Origin: Fibrobacter sp. UWB2 | GTDB taxonomy: Bacteria > Fibrobacterota > Fibrobacteria > Fibrobacterales > Fibrobacteraceae | Assembly: GCF_002210425.1 (NCBI RefSeq) | Contig: NZ_MWQK01000001.1 | Span: forward strand, 496,001 to 560,000 | Reading direction: 5' to 3' | DNA: 64,000 nt | Shown: piece by piece, positions 48,890-54,910 of the stretch | Layout of the letters: every line of letters begins with the position of its first letter | How positions within the stretch are numbered: position 1 is the first letter of the stretch | Notes under the pieces: model-generated | Database searches by the model: none | The model's input: only the letters and a program-made list of their open reading frames with translations | Told to the model about the DNA's origin: nothing | Program-made: the position numbers and the translations under genes

Positions 48890-50608
48890 ATGGCAAATAA
48901 GACCTTAAGTGGTGCCGAAGTGATTATCGAATGCCTCAAGCGTGAAGGCGTTGATACAATTTTCGGCTATCCCGGTGGATCGGCCATTCCGATGTTCGAT
49001 GCCATCCTCGACTCCAGCATCAAAGTTGTGCTCAGCCGTCATGAACAGGGCGCAACCCACATGGCTGACGGTTATGCCCGCCAGACCGGTAAGGTCGGTG
49101 TAGCTCTTGTCACTAGCGGTCCGGGTGCAACGAACACGTTTACAGGTATTTATACAGCTCTCATGGATTCTAGCCCGATCGTCGTGCTCACGGCACAGAC
49201 GACGACTCCGAACTTGGGCAAGGACGCTTTCCAGGAATGCGATACTAGCGGTATGACTTTTGCAACCGTGAAGCATTCTTACTTGGTGAAGGACACGAAC
49301 GACCTCCCGCGCGTGATGAAGGAAGCTTTCCACATTGCACGTTCTGGCCGTCCGGGCCCGGTGCTTATCGACCTCCCGAAGGACGTGACTGCAGGCCCCT
49401 GCACCGCTCCGTTCACGGACCAGATGGACCTTCCGGGTTACAAGATCCCGACCTACGCTTCTACTGAAAGCGTCGAAAAGGCCGCGGAATACCTCAAGAA
49501 TTCTAAGAAGCCGCTTTTGCTCGTGGGCCATGGTGCCATGATTTCTGGCGCACACCGCCAGGTGAAGGAACTCGCCGAAAAGCTCGGCGCTCCGGTTTGC
49601 TGCACAATGCTTGGCCTCGGTGCATTCCCGACCGACCACGAACTTTCTCTCGGCATGCTCGGCATGCACGGTACAATTTACGCCAACAAGGCTGTCCTCG
49701 AATGCGACTTGATCCTTTCGATCGGTAGCCGTTGGGACGACCGCATTACCGGTAAGCTCAGCGAATTCTGCAAGAACGCCGTGAAGATGCACATCGACAT
49801 CGACCCTGCCGAAGAAGGCAAGGTGTTGCAGCCGGATGTGTTCATGTGCGGTGACGCGAAGCTCGTCCTGGAACAGCTCCTCCCGATGGTGAACAAGCTT
49901 GATACCGCTGACTGGATCAAGACTTGCCAGACTTGGAAGAAGCGCTACCCGCTTACCTACGCCAAGCAGGGCGGCCTCCGTATGCAGCACATCGTTGCTA
50001 CCGTGAGCGAACTTACGCAGGGCAAGGCTATTGTTACTACAGACGTGGGCCAGCACCAGATGTGGGTTGCTCAGTTCTTCCACATCAACTATCCGCGTCA
50101 GCTCCACTCCAGCGGTGGCGCAGGCACGATGGGCTTTGGCTTCCCGGCTGCTATCGGTGCCGCATTCGGCAACGAAACCGGCTGGCCGGTTTGCAGCTTC
50201 AGCGGTGACGGTGGTTTCCAGATGACCGAAGCAGAACTTGCAACGGCAGCCATCCACAAGCTCCCCATCAAGATTTTCGTGATGGACAACAAGTACCTCG
50301 GCATGGTGCGCCAGTGGCAGGAACTCTTCTATGACCACCGCTACTCCAGCGTTGACATGAGAGGCAACCCGGACTTCGTGAAGCTCGCTGAAGCTTACGG
50401 CATCCCGGGTCTGCGTATCAAGCGCCCGGCCGATGCTGAGCGCGTGATCCAGAAGGCTTTGGACTACAACGACGGCCCGATTCTCATCCACTGCGAATGC
50501 GAAAAGGAAGACAACGTGTTCCCGATGATTCCGGCAGGCGCTCCGATCACAAGCATGATCACCGAACAGCCGAAGACGCAGCTCGAAAAACCCACCGGAT
50601 CGACGTAA
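48890..50608 (+). CDS. ilvB: Acetolactate synthase, large (catalytic) subunit
   Basis: 572 residues. N-terminal domain with 'VDTIFGYPGGSAIPMFDAI' and the catalytic Glu in 'SRHEQGATHMADGYAR'. Central FAD-binding region 'GHGAMISGAHRQVKELAEKLGAPV'. C-terminal thiamine-diphosphate site 'FSGDGGFQMTEAELATAAIHKLPIKIFVMDNKYLGMVRQWQ' with the GDG...N metal motif. It makes acetolactate from two pyruvates, or acetohydroxybutyrate from pyruvate plus 2-oxobutyrate, for valine, leucine and isoleucine. Codon use is strongly biased (AAG, CTC, GGC), as in highly expressed genes. Confidence 0.96.
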   Translation: MANKTLSGAEVIIECLKREGVDTIFGYPGGSAIPMFDAILDSSIKVVLSRHEQGATHMADGYARQTGKVGVALVTSGPGATNTFTGIYTALMDSSPIVVLTAQTTTPNLGKDAFQECDTSGMTFATVKHSYLVKDTNDLPRVMKEAFHIARSGRPGPVLIDLPKDVTAGPCTAPFTDQMDLPGYKIPTYASTESVEKAAEYLKNSKKPLLLVGHGAMISGAHRQVKELAEKLGAPVCCTMLGLGAFPTDHELSLGMLGMHGTIYANKAVLECDLILSIGSRWDDRITGKLSEFCKNAVKMHIDIDPAEEGKVLQPDVFMCGDAKLVLEQLLPMVNKLDTADWIKTCQTWKKRYPLTYAKQGGLRMQHIVATVSELTQGKAIVTTDVGQHQMWVAQFFHINYPRQLHSSGGAGTMGFGFPAAIGAAFGNETGWPVCSFSGDGGFQMTEAELATAAIHKLPIKIFVMDNKYLGMVRQWQELFYDHRYSSVDMRGNPDFVKLAEAYGIPGLRIKRPADAERVIQKALDYNDGPILIHCECEKEDNVFPMIPAGAPITSMITEQPKTQLEKPTGST

Positions 50609-50623
50609 TAGGAGAATTTGAAA

Positions 50624-51118
50624 ATGAAAGATATTGCACATTCTATTAGCTTGTTAGTAGCAAACCGCCCGGGCGTGCTCGTGCGTATTGCACTCGTGTT
50701 CTCCCGCCGTGGCTACAACATCGATTCTCTCGTCGTCTCCCCCACGCTCGACCCGAACTTCAGCCGCATGAACATCATCGCTCACGGCAATCCCGAAATC
50801 TTGATGCAAATCATCAAGCAGCTCGAAAAGCTCGTGGACGTGGTTCAGGCAAAGGACCATACCGGTACGGACGCTGTGGAAAAGGAACTCGCCCTCATCA
50901 AGGTTCGTTGCACTGCAGAACAGCGCACCGAAATCTTGCAGCTTTGCGACCATTTCCATGCCAACACGGTAGATATGACGATGACTTCCATGATTATCCA
51001 GATTACGGGCAACAGCCAGAAGGTCGATACCCTCAAGAGCTTGTTGCAGAAGTTCGAAATCGTGGAATACATCCGCACGGGCAAGGTCATCATGCTCCGC
51101 GGTGAAGACAAGACCTAA
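50624..51118 (+). CDS. ilvN: Acetolactate synthase, small (regulatory) subunit
   Basis: 164 residues from the ATG at 50624, with GGAGAA 9 bases upstream; a TTG two codons earlier is less likely. The N-terminal ACT domain reads 'HSISLLVANRPGVLVRIALVFSRRGYNIDSLVV', followed by the IlvH-type C-terminal domain 'ELALIKVRCTAEQRTEILQL' and 'FEIVEYIRTGKVIMLRGE'. It stimulates IlvB and gives valine feedback inhibition. It lies 15 bases after ilvB. Confidence 0.95.
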   Translation: MKDIAHSISLLVANRPGVLVRIALVFSRRGYNIDSLVVSPTLDPNFSRMNIIAHGNPEILMQIIKQLEKLVDVVQAKDHTGTDAVEKELALIKVRCTAEQRTEILQLCDHFHANTVDMTMTSMIIQITGNSQKVDTLKSLLQKFEIVEYIRTGKVIMLRGEDKT

Positions 51119-51495: not shown

Positions 51496-52074
51496 ATGAA
51501 AATCGAGAAAAAGAAAGTTACCGGTAATTCACGTTTATCGAGCGCCACCAAAGCTGGGGTCGCCTCGTTGCTTGGCATGTCCGCCGTTTTGATGAGCGGT
51601 TGTTTAGGCGACGCCGAAAGCGGTCAAGTCATCGGCCCAGTTGAACCAGATAACAATAATCCGAACAGCAGCGACGCTTCCGAGACCCCGGAAATACAGT
51701 CTAGTTCTTCTATAGTCGATATTCCGCTGAGCCACGAACGCCTCAGCAGCGAAGCCGTCGAAACACTTTCGTCTTCATCTGTACAATCGCCGAGCAGTTC
51801 TTCTGTTGCGCCAATTCAAAGCAGTTCCTCAGAAAAGACGGTCAGCAGCTCGTCCGAAAGCTCCAGCAGCACATTTGTGGAAAAGCCCCGCAGTTCATCG
51901 AGTGTTAAGGAAGAATCCAGCAGCTCCACAGAAGTCGTCCCACCATGGGTCGGTCCAGGACGCAATTGCAATTATATTGACTCCATGGGCGTCAACGTCA
52001 TTATGTGCCATGACGACGATGATTTCCCGCTAGTGAGCATGGTTTCGACTTACGAGATGTTCGACAACGCATAA
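51496..52074 (+). CDS. Ser-rich lipoprotein, candidate precursor substrate 1 of the radical SAM system
   Basis: 192 residues. The N-terminus 'MKIEKKKVTGNSRLSSATKAG' leads into a lipoprotein signal ending 'VLMSGC'. The middle (about 45-155) is a Ser/Pro/Glu linker with many SSSS runs and the block 'ERLSSEAVETLSSSS'. The short end holds two Cys (C-x12-C) and finishes 'SMVSTYEMFDNA'. Leader, linker block and C-terminal motif are shared with the next gene, yet the linkers differ, which suggests selection on the two ends. The protein has no catalytic domain. A role as a peptide substrate displayed on the surface and modified by the SPASM enzyme is inference. It is the first gene of a three-gene operon. 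Confidence 0.8.
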   Translation: MKIEKKKVTGNSRLSSATKAGVASLLGMSAVLMSGCLGDAESGQVIGPVEPDNNNPNSSDASETPEIQSSSSIVDIPLSHERLSSEAVETLSSSSVQSPSSSSVAPIQSSSSEKTVSSSSESSSSTFVEKPRSSSSVKEESSSSTEVVPPWVGPGRNCNYIDSMGVNVIMCHDDDDFPLVSMVSTYEMFDNA

Positions 52075-52098
52075 AATTTGCAAGCGCTAGGTGTAACC

Positions 52099-52800
52099 AT
52101 GAAAATTGAGAAGAAGAAAGTCGTCAAGAACTCAAAATTGAGCCGTTTCACCAAAAGCGCGGTCGCGGCCGCACTCGGAATTGCGGCATCCTTCGGGACC
52201 ATAGCCTGCGATGACAGCGTTTCTGCAACGGGCGGAGACCACCCCAAGCAGCCGCCAGAAACCGAACCGACATGCGGACAGGCTGCATGCGGAGAACAAT
52301 ACAGCAGTTCAAGCTACACCGACATTTCTTCTAGCGGGGAGCGCCTCAGCAGCGAAGCCATCGAAGCACTTTCATCCGCAAAACAGCCGTTGAGCAGTAG
52401 TTCCATGGTGTTTCCACCACCGGAATCGGGCTCCCCGATGGCGGATTCGGAATCCTCGATGTCTTCCGAACGTCTCAGCAGTTCGTCTTACGAGCCACCT
52501 CCAGAAGCAGGCATTCTTCCGCCATACGAAGAATCCTCGTCAAGCGTAGCGCCATCAAGCAGCTCCATGGAAATACTCGAACCTCTCGCTGGCGATCCGA
52601 TTGTCACAGAAAGCAGCTCGAGCGAAAGTACGCCTGGAATACAGTCCAGTAGTAGCGATATCAAAGTCCCTGTCCCACAGATTACACCTGTCATAGACAC
52701 TCTCACCCCCCGTATCCACCTGTGCGAAGACCCAAACAATCCAGGTTGCCTTATAGAAAGCATGGTAACAACGTTTGAGCAGGACGACATTCAAGCATGA
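52099..52800 (+). CDS. Ser-rich lipoprotein, candidate precursor substrate 2 of the radical SAM system
   Basis: 233 residues from the ATG at 52099 (AGGTG 6 bases upstream); an ATG 21 bases earlier lacks a ribosome site and would break the shared leader. It is a paralogue of the gene just before: 'MKIEKKKVVKNSKLSRFTKSA', signal end 'FGTIAC', linker block 'ERLSSEAIEALSSA', and C-terminus 'CEDPNNPGCLIESMVTTFE' followed by QDDIQA. The common C-terminal motif is S-M-V-[ST]-T-[YF]-E. The linker has two Pro/Glu-rich parts. Its TGA overlaps the ATG of the radical SAM gene (ATGA), so translation is coupled. Confidence 0.8.
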   Translation: MKIEKKKVVKNSKLSRFTKSAVAAALGIAASFGTIACDDSVSATGGDHPKQPPETEPTCGQAACGEQYSSSSYTDISSSGERLSSEAIEALSSAKQPLSSSSMVFPPPESGSPMADSESSMSSERLSSSSYEPPPEAGILPPYEESSSSVAPSSSSMEILEPLAGDPIVTESSSSESTPGIQSSSSDIKVPVPQITPVIDTLTPRIHLCEDPNNPGCLIESMVTTFEQDDIQA

Positions 52801-53885
52801 ACTTAGTCCTTTGCCTTACAGAGCAATGTAATTTACGTTGTACCTACTGCTATTACAAGGAATCGCAAGCAGACCGCAAAACGGTCATGGACGATGCAAC
52901 CCTCGAGCAGGCCATCAAAATTGCACTTGACCGCACGATTTTCTTTAGGCAGTCGTACTTGAACATCACGTTCTTTGGAGGGGAGCCGCTTTTGCGAAGA
53001 GATGCCATTTATAAAGGTGTCGAATTCGCAAAGGCGATTGTCGATGACGCGATGGACAAAGGCAAAATTTCAAAAAATTTTAAGTTGCAATTTGCGGTCA
53101 ACACAAACGGCACGCTTTTTGACGATGAATTCTTTGATTTTTGCGAAAAGGAACATTTCCGCATTTATCTTTCCCTTGACGGGCCGGAACACCACCACGA
53201 CATCGCCCGACGCACCGTCAACAACACGGGAAGCTTCAAGGCCATCGAAAAGCATATTCCGCGATTCGTGAAACTCGGCGCAGTCGCGTTAAGCACAGTC
53301 ACACGAGCGCACGTCAGCACGCTTTTCGAAAGCGTCAAGTGGCTGCACGAACAGGGATTTCAAAGCCTCACCACAAGCGTCGATTTTGATGGCAAATGGA
53401 GCGGCGAAGACTTTGACAAGCTCGCCTTGCAATATCAGAAAATGGCAGATTACTGGAGAGAATGCCGCGAAAAAGGCGACAAGTTCTTCCTCGGCACAAT
53501 CCACGACAAAGTAAAAATAAGACTTATTAATTCGCGATACAGACTTTATTCGTGCCATGTGTACAATGGAGCAATCGGTGTTGCGACAAACGGGAATATG
53601 TTCCCTTGCACACGGTTTATTACTTCTAACCCAGACACCCACTATGTGCAGGGGAACGTCTTTACCGGCTTTGATGAAGCGGCATGCGACAAGATTCGTG
53701 AATTTTTGGACAACGACAAAAAAGAATGCGAGGGGTGCGACATCCGCTACCGTTGCTGCGCACACGAGTGCGCCTGCACGAGCTATTACACGACGGGGAC
53801 AATAGAAGGAGTGTCACCCGAAGTGTGCACACACGAAAGAATGCTCGCAGAAATCTGCGATACATTGCTTGAGAAAATGGCGTAA
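52797..53885 (+). CDS. Radical SAM/SPASM peptide-modifying enzyme
   Basis: 362 residues. The SAM cluster motif is C11-x3-C15-x2-C18 ('CNLRCTYC'), followed by 'FFGGEP' (59-64). The C-terminal SPASM region has Cys at 253, 271, 311, 314, 320, 321, 325, 327 and 344, including 'CEGCDIRYRCC' and 'CAC', enough for two extra [4Fe-4S] clusters. This layout is typical of sactionine/thioether, C-C crosslink and other RiPP maturases and of anaerobic sulfatase-maturing enzymes. There is no sulfatase nearby. Start overlap with the lipoprotein gene marks that lipoprotein as the likely substrate. There is no N-terminal RRE domain. The exact modification is unknown. Confidence 0.88.
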   Translation: MNLVLCLTEQCNLRCTYCYYKESQADRKTVMDDATLEQAIKIALDRTIFFRQSYLNITFFGGEPLLRRDAIYKGVEFAKAIVDDAMDKGKISKNFKLQFAVNTNGTLFDDEFFDFCEKEHFRIYLSLDGPEHHHDIARRTVNNTGSFKAIEKHIPRFVKLGAVALSTVTRAHVSTLFESVKWLHEQGFQSLTTSVDFDGKWSGEDFDKLALQYQKMADYWRECREKGDKFFLGTIHDKVKIRLINSRYRLYSCHVYNGAIGVATNGNMFPCTRFITSNPDTHYVQGNVFTGFDEAACDKIREFLDNDKKECEGCDIRYRCCAHECACTSYYTTGTIEGVSPEVCTHERMLAEICDTLLEKMA

Positions 53886-54552: not shown

Positions 54553-54910
54553 TGGAGGTGAGGGGAGTCGAACCCCTGTCCAAAATCACGTCCATGTACG
54601 TTCCTACAAGTGTTCCCTTCGTATTTAAGATCTCGTCTTATCCACGCCCAAGAAGGTCGGCGCGGAGTTTGACCAGCCTAGTAAATCTCGGGAGATGCCC
54701 CCAGGCATGACACTACCCTATCCCATATTGCGTCCGGACGTACACCCCGATGGGAGCGGAATGAGGCCCGGCGTTGCCGTTAATTAGGCAGCGAGTGCGT
54801 AGTTTTCGTCAGCACTTATTTTTTTTCAGACTTTTTAACGAGTTGCCCTCGTCTGAGACCTCGACTTGCAACTAACACTTCGGTAACCCTGTCGAAACCA
54901 AAGCACCCCC
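54553..54910 (-). ncRNA. ssrA: tmRNA (transfer-messenger RNA)
   Basis: About 358 nt. The 5' end GGGGGTGCTTTGG runs into TTTCGACAGGG, and the 3' end reads GGACAGGGGTTCGACTCCCC then TCACCTCCA. The 7-bp acceptor stem pairs GGGGGTG with CACCTCC, with discriminator A; CCA is not encoded. The tag reading frame lies mid-gene: GCT GAC GAA AAC TAC GCA CTC GCT GCC TAA, giving ADENYALAA. tmRNA with SmpB rescues stalled ribosomes and marks the product for proteolysis. It is a one-piece, non-permuted type. The 5' side is odd: the terminal 14 bases are duplicated upstream around an inserted element. Confidence 0.95.

Follow-up and report, generated by a model that had tools for sequence, protein, structure and literature searches.

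Among the described systems that come closest to the locus considered here, one pairs radical SAM enzymes with lipoproteins and is represented by the profiles TIGR04133 (rSAM_w_lipo) and TIGR04134 (lipo_with_rSAM), in which a SPASM-type enzyme is encoded directly 3' of at least one Ser-rich lipoprotein. The others are maturases: the anaerobic sulfatase maturases (anSME, TIGR03942; PDB 4k37), the SCIFF maturase CteB (TIGR03974; PDB 5why, 5wgg), which is of the thioether type, and the radical SAM/SPASM ranthipeptide maturase PapB (NF047865). The chemistry of ranthipeptides is the formation of a thioether from Cys to a non-alpha carbon. PapB joins Cys to Asp or Glu, and the PapA-like peptides that are its partners carry six CX3D/E motifs (PMC9413430). 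In the literature searched, no characterised member of the radical SAM/lipoprotein families was found, nor anything relevant to such precedents in Fibrobacter; radical SAM goes unmentioned in the main text of a study (PMC6851124) on the cell-envelope proteome of F. succinogenes S85.

The locus lies in a window of 64,000 nucleotides (the whole stretch of DNA that was analysed) from Fibrobacter sp. UWB2, where two lipoprotein genes are followed by the gene of a radical SAM/SPASM enzyme, with the following features in window coordinates:

51496..52074, + strand: lipoprotein LP1, 192 aa, with leader, Ser-rich linker, G-motif SGQVIGPVEP, and Cys + SMVSTYE tail
51496..51555, + strand: LP1 leader, residues 1-20 (MKIEKKKVTGNSRLSSATKA), recognised by its gapless conservation and overlapping the n-region of the signal peptide
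51574..51603, + strand: hydrophobic end and lipobox of the predicted LP1 signal peptide (...MSAVLMSGC), from the sequence
51616..51651, + strand: LP1 G-motif region (ESGQVIGPVEPD), directly after the lipobox
51967..52071, + strand: LP1 C-terminal tail, CNYID...IMCHDDDDFPLVSMVSTYEMFDNA
52102..52800, + strand: lipoprotein LP2, 232 aa, a paralogue of LP1, overlapped by the enzyme gene as ATGA
52102..52161, + strand: LP2 leader (MKIEKKKVVKNSKLSRFTKS)
52507..52536, + strand: LP2 G-motif EAGILPPYEE
52585..52614, + strand: LP2 G-motif, PLAGDPIVT region
52723..52797, + strand: LP2 C-terminal tail, CEDPNNPGCLIESMVTTFEQDDIQA
52797..53885, + strand: radical SAM/SPASM peptide maturase (putative), 362 aa, without an N-terminal RRE domain

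LP1 begins with MKIEKKKVTGNSRLSSATKAGVASLLGMSAVLMSGC and ends in ...CNYIDSMGVNVIMCHDDDDFPLVSMVSTYEMFDNA, LP2 begins with MKIEKKKVVKNSKLSRFTKSAVAAALGIAASFGTIAC and ends in ...CEDPNNPGCLIESMVTTFEQDDIQA, as read from the sequence, and each has a long basic N-terminus followed by a hydrophobic stretch and a lipobox-like Cys. The two proteins are paired by BLASTP (E=1e-6), their C-terminal segments aligning too, albeit weakly, and in profile searches neither was described by any NCBIfam or Pfam family. The preliminary description of this DNA had reported two Ser-rich lipoproteins with a common leader, linker block (here ERLSSEAVETLSS and ERLSSEAIEALSS) and tail, together with the ATGA overlap between LP2 and the enzyme gene, a C-x3-C-x2-C motif and a Cys-rich SPASM domain, all of which can be read directly from the sequence. 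Genes resembling the large and small subunits of acetolactate synthase lie just upstream (window 48890-51118); such genes precede the locus in several species and other genes do so in others. A tmRNA gene with the tag ADENYALAA is found at 54553-54910 on the minus strand.

The cluster motif of the enzyme, CNLRCTYC, comprises C11, C15 and C18, and these three residues, plus the SPASM cysteines C253, C271, C311, C314, C320, C325, C327 and C344, are invariant among 37 diverse members, so that both the CX3CX2C motif and the auxiliary-cluster Cys of the radical SAM/SPASM superfamily are present. Against Pfam the enzyme scores 63.3 bits for Radical_SAM and 17.8 bits for SPASM, the latter under its cut-off of 21.5. 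Its nearest NCBIfam is PapB, with 215.7 bits and thus well below the cut-off of 340; nif11-type, quinohemoprotein and SCIFF maturases come next. PapB is likewise the best NCBIfam match of all five members tested (180-216 bits; the four others 180-215). The AlphaFold model (pLDDT 89.8) matches CteB best (TM 0.76), besides anSME (TM about 0.73) and ChlB. Since the match starts only at about residue 99 of CteB, the enzyme lacks the N-terminal RRE region.

The enzyme family was present in 46 of 61 genomes of the genus Fibrobacter in a first search (own genome counted). Four genomes from further genera of Fibrobacteraceae also have it, and a spirochaete MAG encodes a homologue of 38% identity; phage records yielded only distant SPASM proteins, at most 28% identical. 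On a tree of 79 enzymes, four types of partner map to four well-supported groups with three changes of type, the minimum, compared with a mean of 36.7 after shuffling. Upstream of the enzymes of clades A (that of the window enzyme), B and C stand between one and four Ser-rich lipoproteins, which fall into three types. At the 54 loci where an upstream lipoprotein was detected automatically, never more than 34 nt separate the end of the nearest one from the start of the enzyme, and at 31 of them the two genes overlap as ATGA; one clade-A locus (L072) has a lipoprotein that the automatic search missed, and a truncated clade-C copy was left out. Where lipoproteins occur in tandem, up to four per locus, the linkers diverge and leader and tail are kept, and at four loci (L059, L065, L066 and L070) four such lipoproteins stand 5' of a single enzyme. 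In the spirochaete genome (Spirochaetes bacterium GWF1_51_8, L188:1337-4559), four tandem paralogous exported proteins are encoded directly 5' of the enzyme. Clade D, in contrast, has no upstream lipoprotein; an ATG-initiated ORF of 69-183 aa without a lipobox follows 14-38 nt downstream, and the partners tested from this clade are described by no known family. Two further paralogues of the window enzyme in its own genome belong to clade D (L107, G000:C5:248881-249963; L108, G000:C1:579657-580739), and the gene after each encodes a short, Cys-free, Lys-rich protein (of 74 aa and 102 aa, respectively). GG[KVPEM]xx sites are found in the group of L107, often in two copies.

The dedicated pairing of enzyme and lipoproteins that had been proposed from the window thus holds in clades A, B and C, all of whose homologues with available upstream sequence have such lipoproteins, and fails in clade D, where the partners are downstream and of another kind. 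Clade D, the only lineage without an upstream exported partner, falls together with clade C at moderate support. Trees that include the spirochaete and other outgroups do not place the root, their outgroup branches being very long; read most simply, the exported partners would be ancestral and clade D would have switched. Given the perfect co-segregation of clade and partner type, the neighbouring proteins are very probably dedicated substrates of the enzyme, which very probably alters its lipid-anchored partners ahead of export. Alternatively, the real substrate of the enzyme could be encoded elsewhere in the genome, with the lipoproteins working alongside the enzyme or downstream of it, as the missing RRE might suggest; this is quite improbable in view of the clade-wise co-segregation, the coupled genes, the repeated duplication of tandem partners with conserved ends, and the fact that LP2 has no other strong match among the proteins of its own genome.

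The leader is gap-free and conserved in nearly all lipoproteins of clades A, B and C. In clade A, IEK occupies positions 3-5 in 49 of 49 unique leaders and position 15 is mostly Ser, and in clades B and C Ile3 and Lys5 are found throughout, mostly with Trp14-Ser15. The pattern is MNIx...[YF]14, then Ser or Pro at position 15, in the other genera of Fibrobacteraceae, and M[NDK]F...Y14[ST]15 in three of the four partners of the spirochaete enzyme. Such position-by-position conservation in front of differing bodies is the pattern expected of an enzyme recognition element; leader binding can be read only from this conservation, as the enzyme has no RRE domain, a point against it. Some of the conservation may also be due to a role in export, given the overlap of leader and signal peptide. 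As candidates for the leader-guided modification of a precursor by which RiPPs are defined, these lipoproteins have conserved leader and end sequences.

The gene pairing, the leader, the tail, the G-motif and the full set of radical SAM and SPASM cysteines can all be read in the sequence; from them we infer a two-part maturation system, with a probability of roughly 0.6, in which the SPASM enzyme, guided by the leader, would modify Ser-rich lipoproteins in the cytoplasm before their export. The enzyme would recognise the leader of about 20 residues at the N-terminus of the co-translated lipoproteins, in the stretch before the signal peptide and at its beginning, and would then modify short target sites downstream of it while the lipoproteins are still cytoplasmic. 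Sec export and lipidation at the lipobox Cys would follow, bringing the proteins presumably to the cell surface, and the leader would be lost along with the signal peptide, so that no RiPP protease or exporter would be needed. The absence of an adjacent protease or peptide exporter from the window had been pointed out before, and indeed none is seen to be conserved in the operons; nor was a RiPP leader protease or exporter, which is usual and not obligatory, recognised among the flanking ORFs of the listed loci. As for the target, in clade A it would most likely be the tail, [IVLF]x[ILMFT]C...SMx[STI]T[FYL][ED]xx[DE], and in the other clades most likely a repeated motif, [LIT][ASG]G[DEIVM][PIV].

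For a search across the genus, the tail SMV[ST]T[FY]E was written as a degenerate DNA pattern and run over 80 Fibrobacter genomes, the reversed pattern giving no match in the same set. Each of the 80 matches, which come from 45 genomes, has a clade-A enzyme downstream of it on its contig, no more than 2965 nt away, which rules out chance adjacency. A match is found in 45 of the 46 genomes with a clade-A enzyme and in none of the 34 without, and in the only exception (G010) the lipoprotein reads SMATTFE; the co-occurrence anticipated in the preliminary description is thereby borne out. The tail is present in 58/58 clade-A lipoproteins, whereas shuffling these sequences gives about 1.9, and it is present in none of 12 control Ser-rich lipoproteins from the genome of the window (drawn from 400 kb, the window and two loci). 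The 53 unique clade-A tails all share S, M and T (S+4), have an acidic residue (E or D) at both S+6 and S+9 without exception, and reach the C-terminus 12 or 13 residues from Ser; Cys always precedes Ser, at a spacing varying from 4 to 15 residues. Clade B has a variant that keeps SM[PA][ST] and ends in GH[IV]x[IV]P[LM], with no conserved Cys or acids. The proposal that the tail is the modification target therefore holds for clade A, where the tail is universal, and for its sister clade B with the variant form, and does not extend to the family as a whole. Between LP2 orthologues, identity amounts to 0.87 in the leader/signal region, 0.66 in the linker and 0.75 in the tail. Blocks related to ERLSSEA were found in 31 of 58 clade-A proteins by a loose regular expression, an undercount since LP1 of the window itself is missed, and in none of clades B and C, for which reason this block was discarded as a general element.

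A Gly-centred motif such as PL[AS]G[DIV]P recurs in the Ser-rich linkers of most lineages, including the spirochaete homologue. Clade-C lipoproteins, which have no tail, carry many sites like PLAGIPEL, TSGEVIPP and PLPGDPIE. Counts with a strict regular expression, to be taken as descriptive and not as independent tests because the expressions were partly derived from the same data, are 57 observed versus 1.2 in shuffled sequences for clade C, 11 versus 0.5 for the other Fibrobacteraceae genera, 33 versus 1.9 for clade A (in 22 of 58 proteins), and 2 versus 1.1 for the 12 controls, none within their first 200 residues. As the controls, of which there were only 12, lack the tail and show the strict G-motif at chance, neither element is taken for a general feature of Ser-rich lipoproteins in Fibrobacter. 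It is possible, if unlikely, that the enzyme acts mainly on the Gly motif in the whole family, even in clade A, and that the SM tail is left unmodified as a separate functional end that serves, for instance, in binding or sorting. The counts in clade C and the other genera point in that direction, as do the four tandem spirochaete partners, whose bodies are unrelated and which each have one site after the signal peptide (PPLAGKPAIPG, KTAGVPYDP, PLGGDIAYF and PLLGEPVAM), and several clade-D partners with similar Gly sites, where a Gly-centred motif is over-represented (EM log-likelihood 141 versus 89 +/- 3 shuffled, a value somewhat inflated by related sequences). LP1 and LP2 of the window also have such sites. 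However, even a loose expression finds the motif in just 33 of 58 clade-A lipoproteins, where the tail is universal and sits at a fixed distance from the C-terminus, and the comparison includes proteins that are related to each other. For clade A, we regard the tail as the strongest candidate target.

The affinity to PapB and the invariant Cys and acids of the tail suggest a thioether of the PapB kind, from Cys to Asp or Glu, which is our best guess for clade A and a doubtful one: the Cys position varies, CX3[DE] occurs in only 22 of 58 tails with a spacing that is not conserved, unlike the repeated motif of PapB-type precursors, and the enzyme scores below the PapB cut-off. CX3[DE] was accordingly rejected as a precursor motif. 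Since a conserved Cys-acid pair is absent in clades B and C and in most clade-D partners, a thioether is not the family-wide reaction.

Tentatively, and at just short of even odds, we propose that these proteins are radical-SAM-modified lipoproteins of a class not described before, which is found in Fibrobacteraceae and in a spirochaete relative. In this class, the leader would overlap the signal peptide, Sec export and signal-peptide processing would replace RiPP proteolysis and export, and modified Gly motifs would be repeated like beads on Ser-rich stalks, with a modified C-terminal tip in the clade of the window; a single family of enzymes would have shifted between partners that are exported and partners that stay in the cytoplasm. 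The 79 natural enzyme/partner loci, with a defined leader and two candidate target motifs, constitute an unusually clean set with built-in comparisons between clades that have or lack the tail, Cys or lipobox. Fibrobacter is a major rumen cellulose degrader and, if confirmed, the system would add a new layer of decoration to its envelope and show that a peptide maturase is able to work on export-bound lipoproteins.

When compared with known systems, the enzyme shares the SPASM architecture of anSME and, like members of TIGR04133, stands next to Ser-rich lipoproteins, so that it could be regarded as a sulfatase maturase or as a member of that lipoprotein-associated family. Both assignments can practically be dismissed: it obtains 94.2 bits for TIGR03942 (cut-off 349), placing it outside the sulfatase-maturase clade, an outcome on which the preliminary description had made its reading depend, and no sulfatase gene is found among the ORFs around the locus. 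For TIGR04133 it reaches 27.5 bits (cut-off 425), while two other enzymes of the same genome are genuine members with 626.7 and 598.2 bits; TIGR04134 gave just one weak match, elsewhere in the genome (20.5 bits). Upstream of these two enzymes (L118, G000:C2:414596-415645; L119, G000:C1:663248-664297), a precedent that had been overlooked, are Ser-rich lipoproteins in which YG[VAP] motifs are repeated. XYG sites are where spliceases act, and these repeats may resemble them.

CteB, the best structural match, differs in its RRE-holding N-terminus, missing here, and in its six-Cys SCIFF-type peptide, of which there is none nearby. PapB, although the top NCBIfam match, has a PapA-like peptide as partner, in contrast to the long signal-peptide lipoproteins or Cys-poor small proteins of the present family. 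In the profile libraries and literature searched, this enzyme family, its leader, tail and Gly motif, and the clade-D partners are undescribed. TIGR04133 systems share the gene order and the Ser-rich partners and differ in their separate enzyme family, in a leader of the type MYKHWKK..., in YG[VAP] motifs in place of the SM tail and G-motif, and in a short intergenic gap where the window locus has its ATGA overlap. Nevertheless, because TIGR04133 and TIGR04134 already catalogue radical SAM/lipoprotein pairs, the kind of system to which this locus belongs is a known one.
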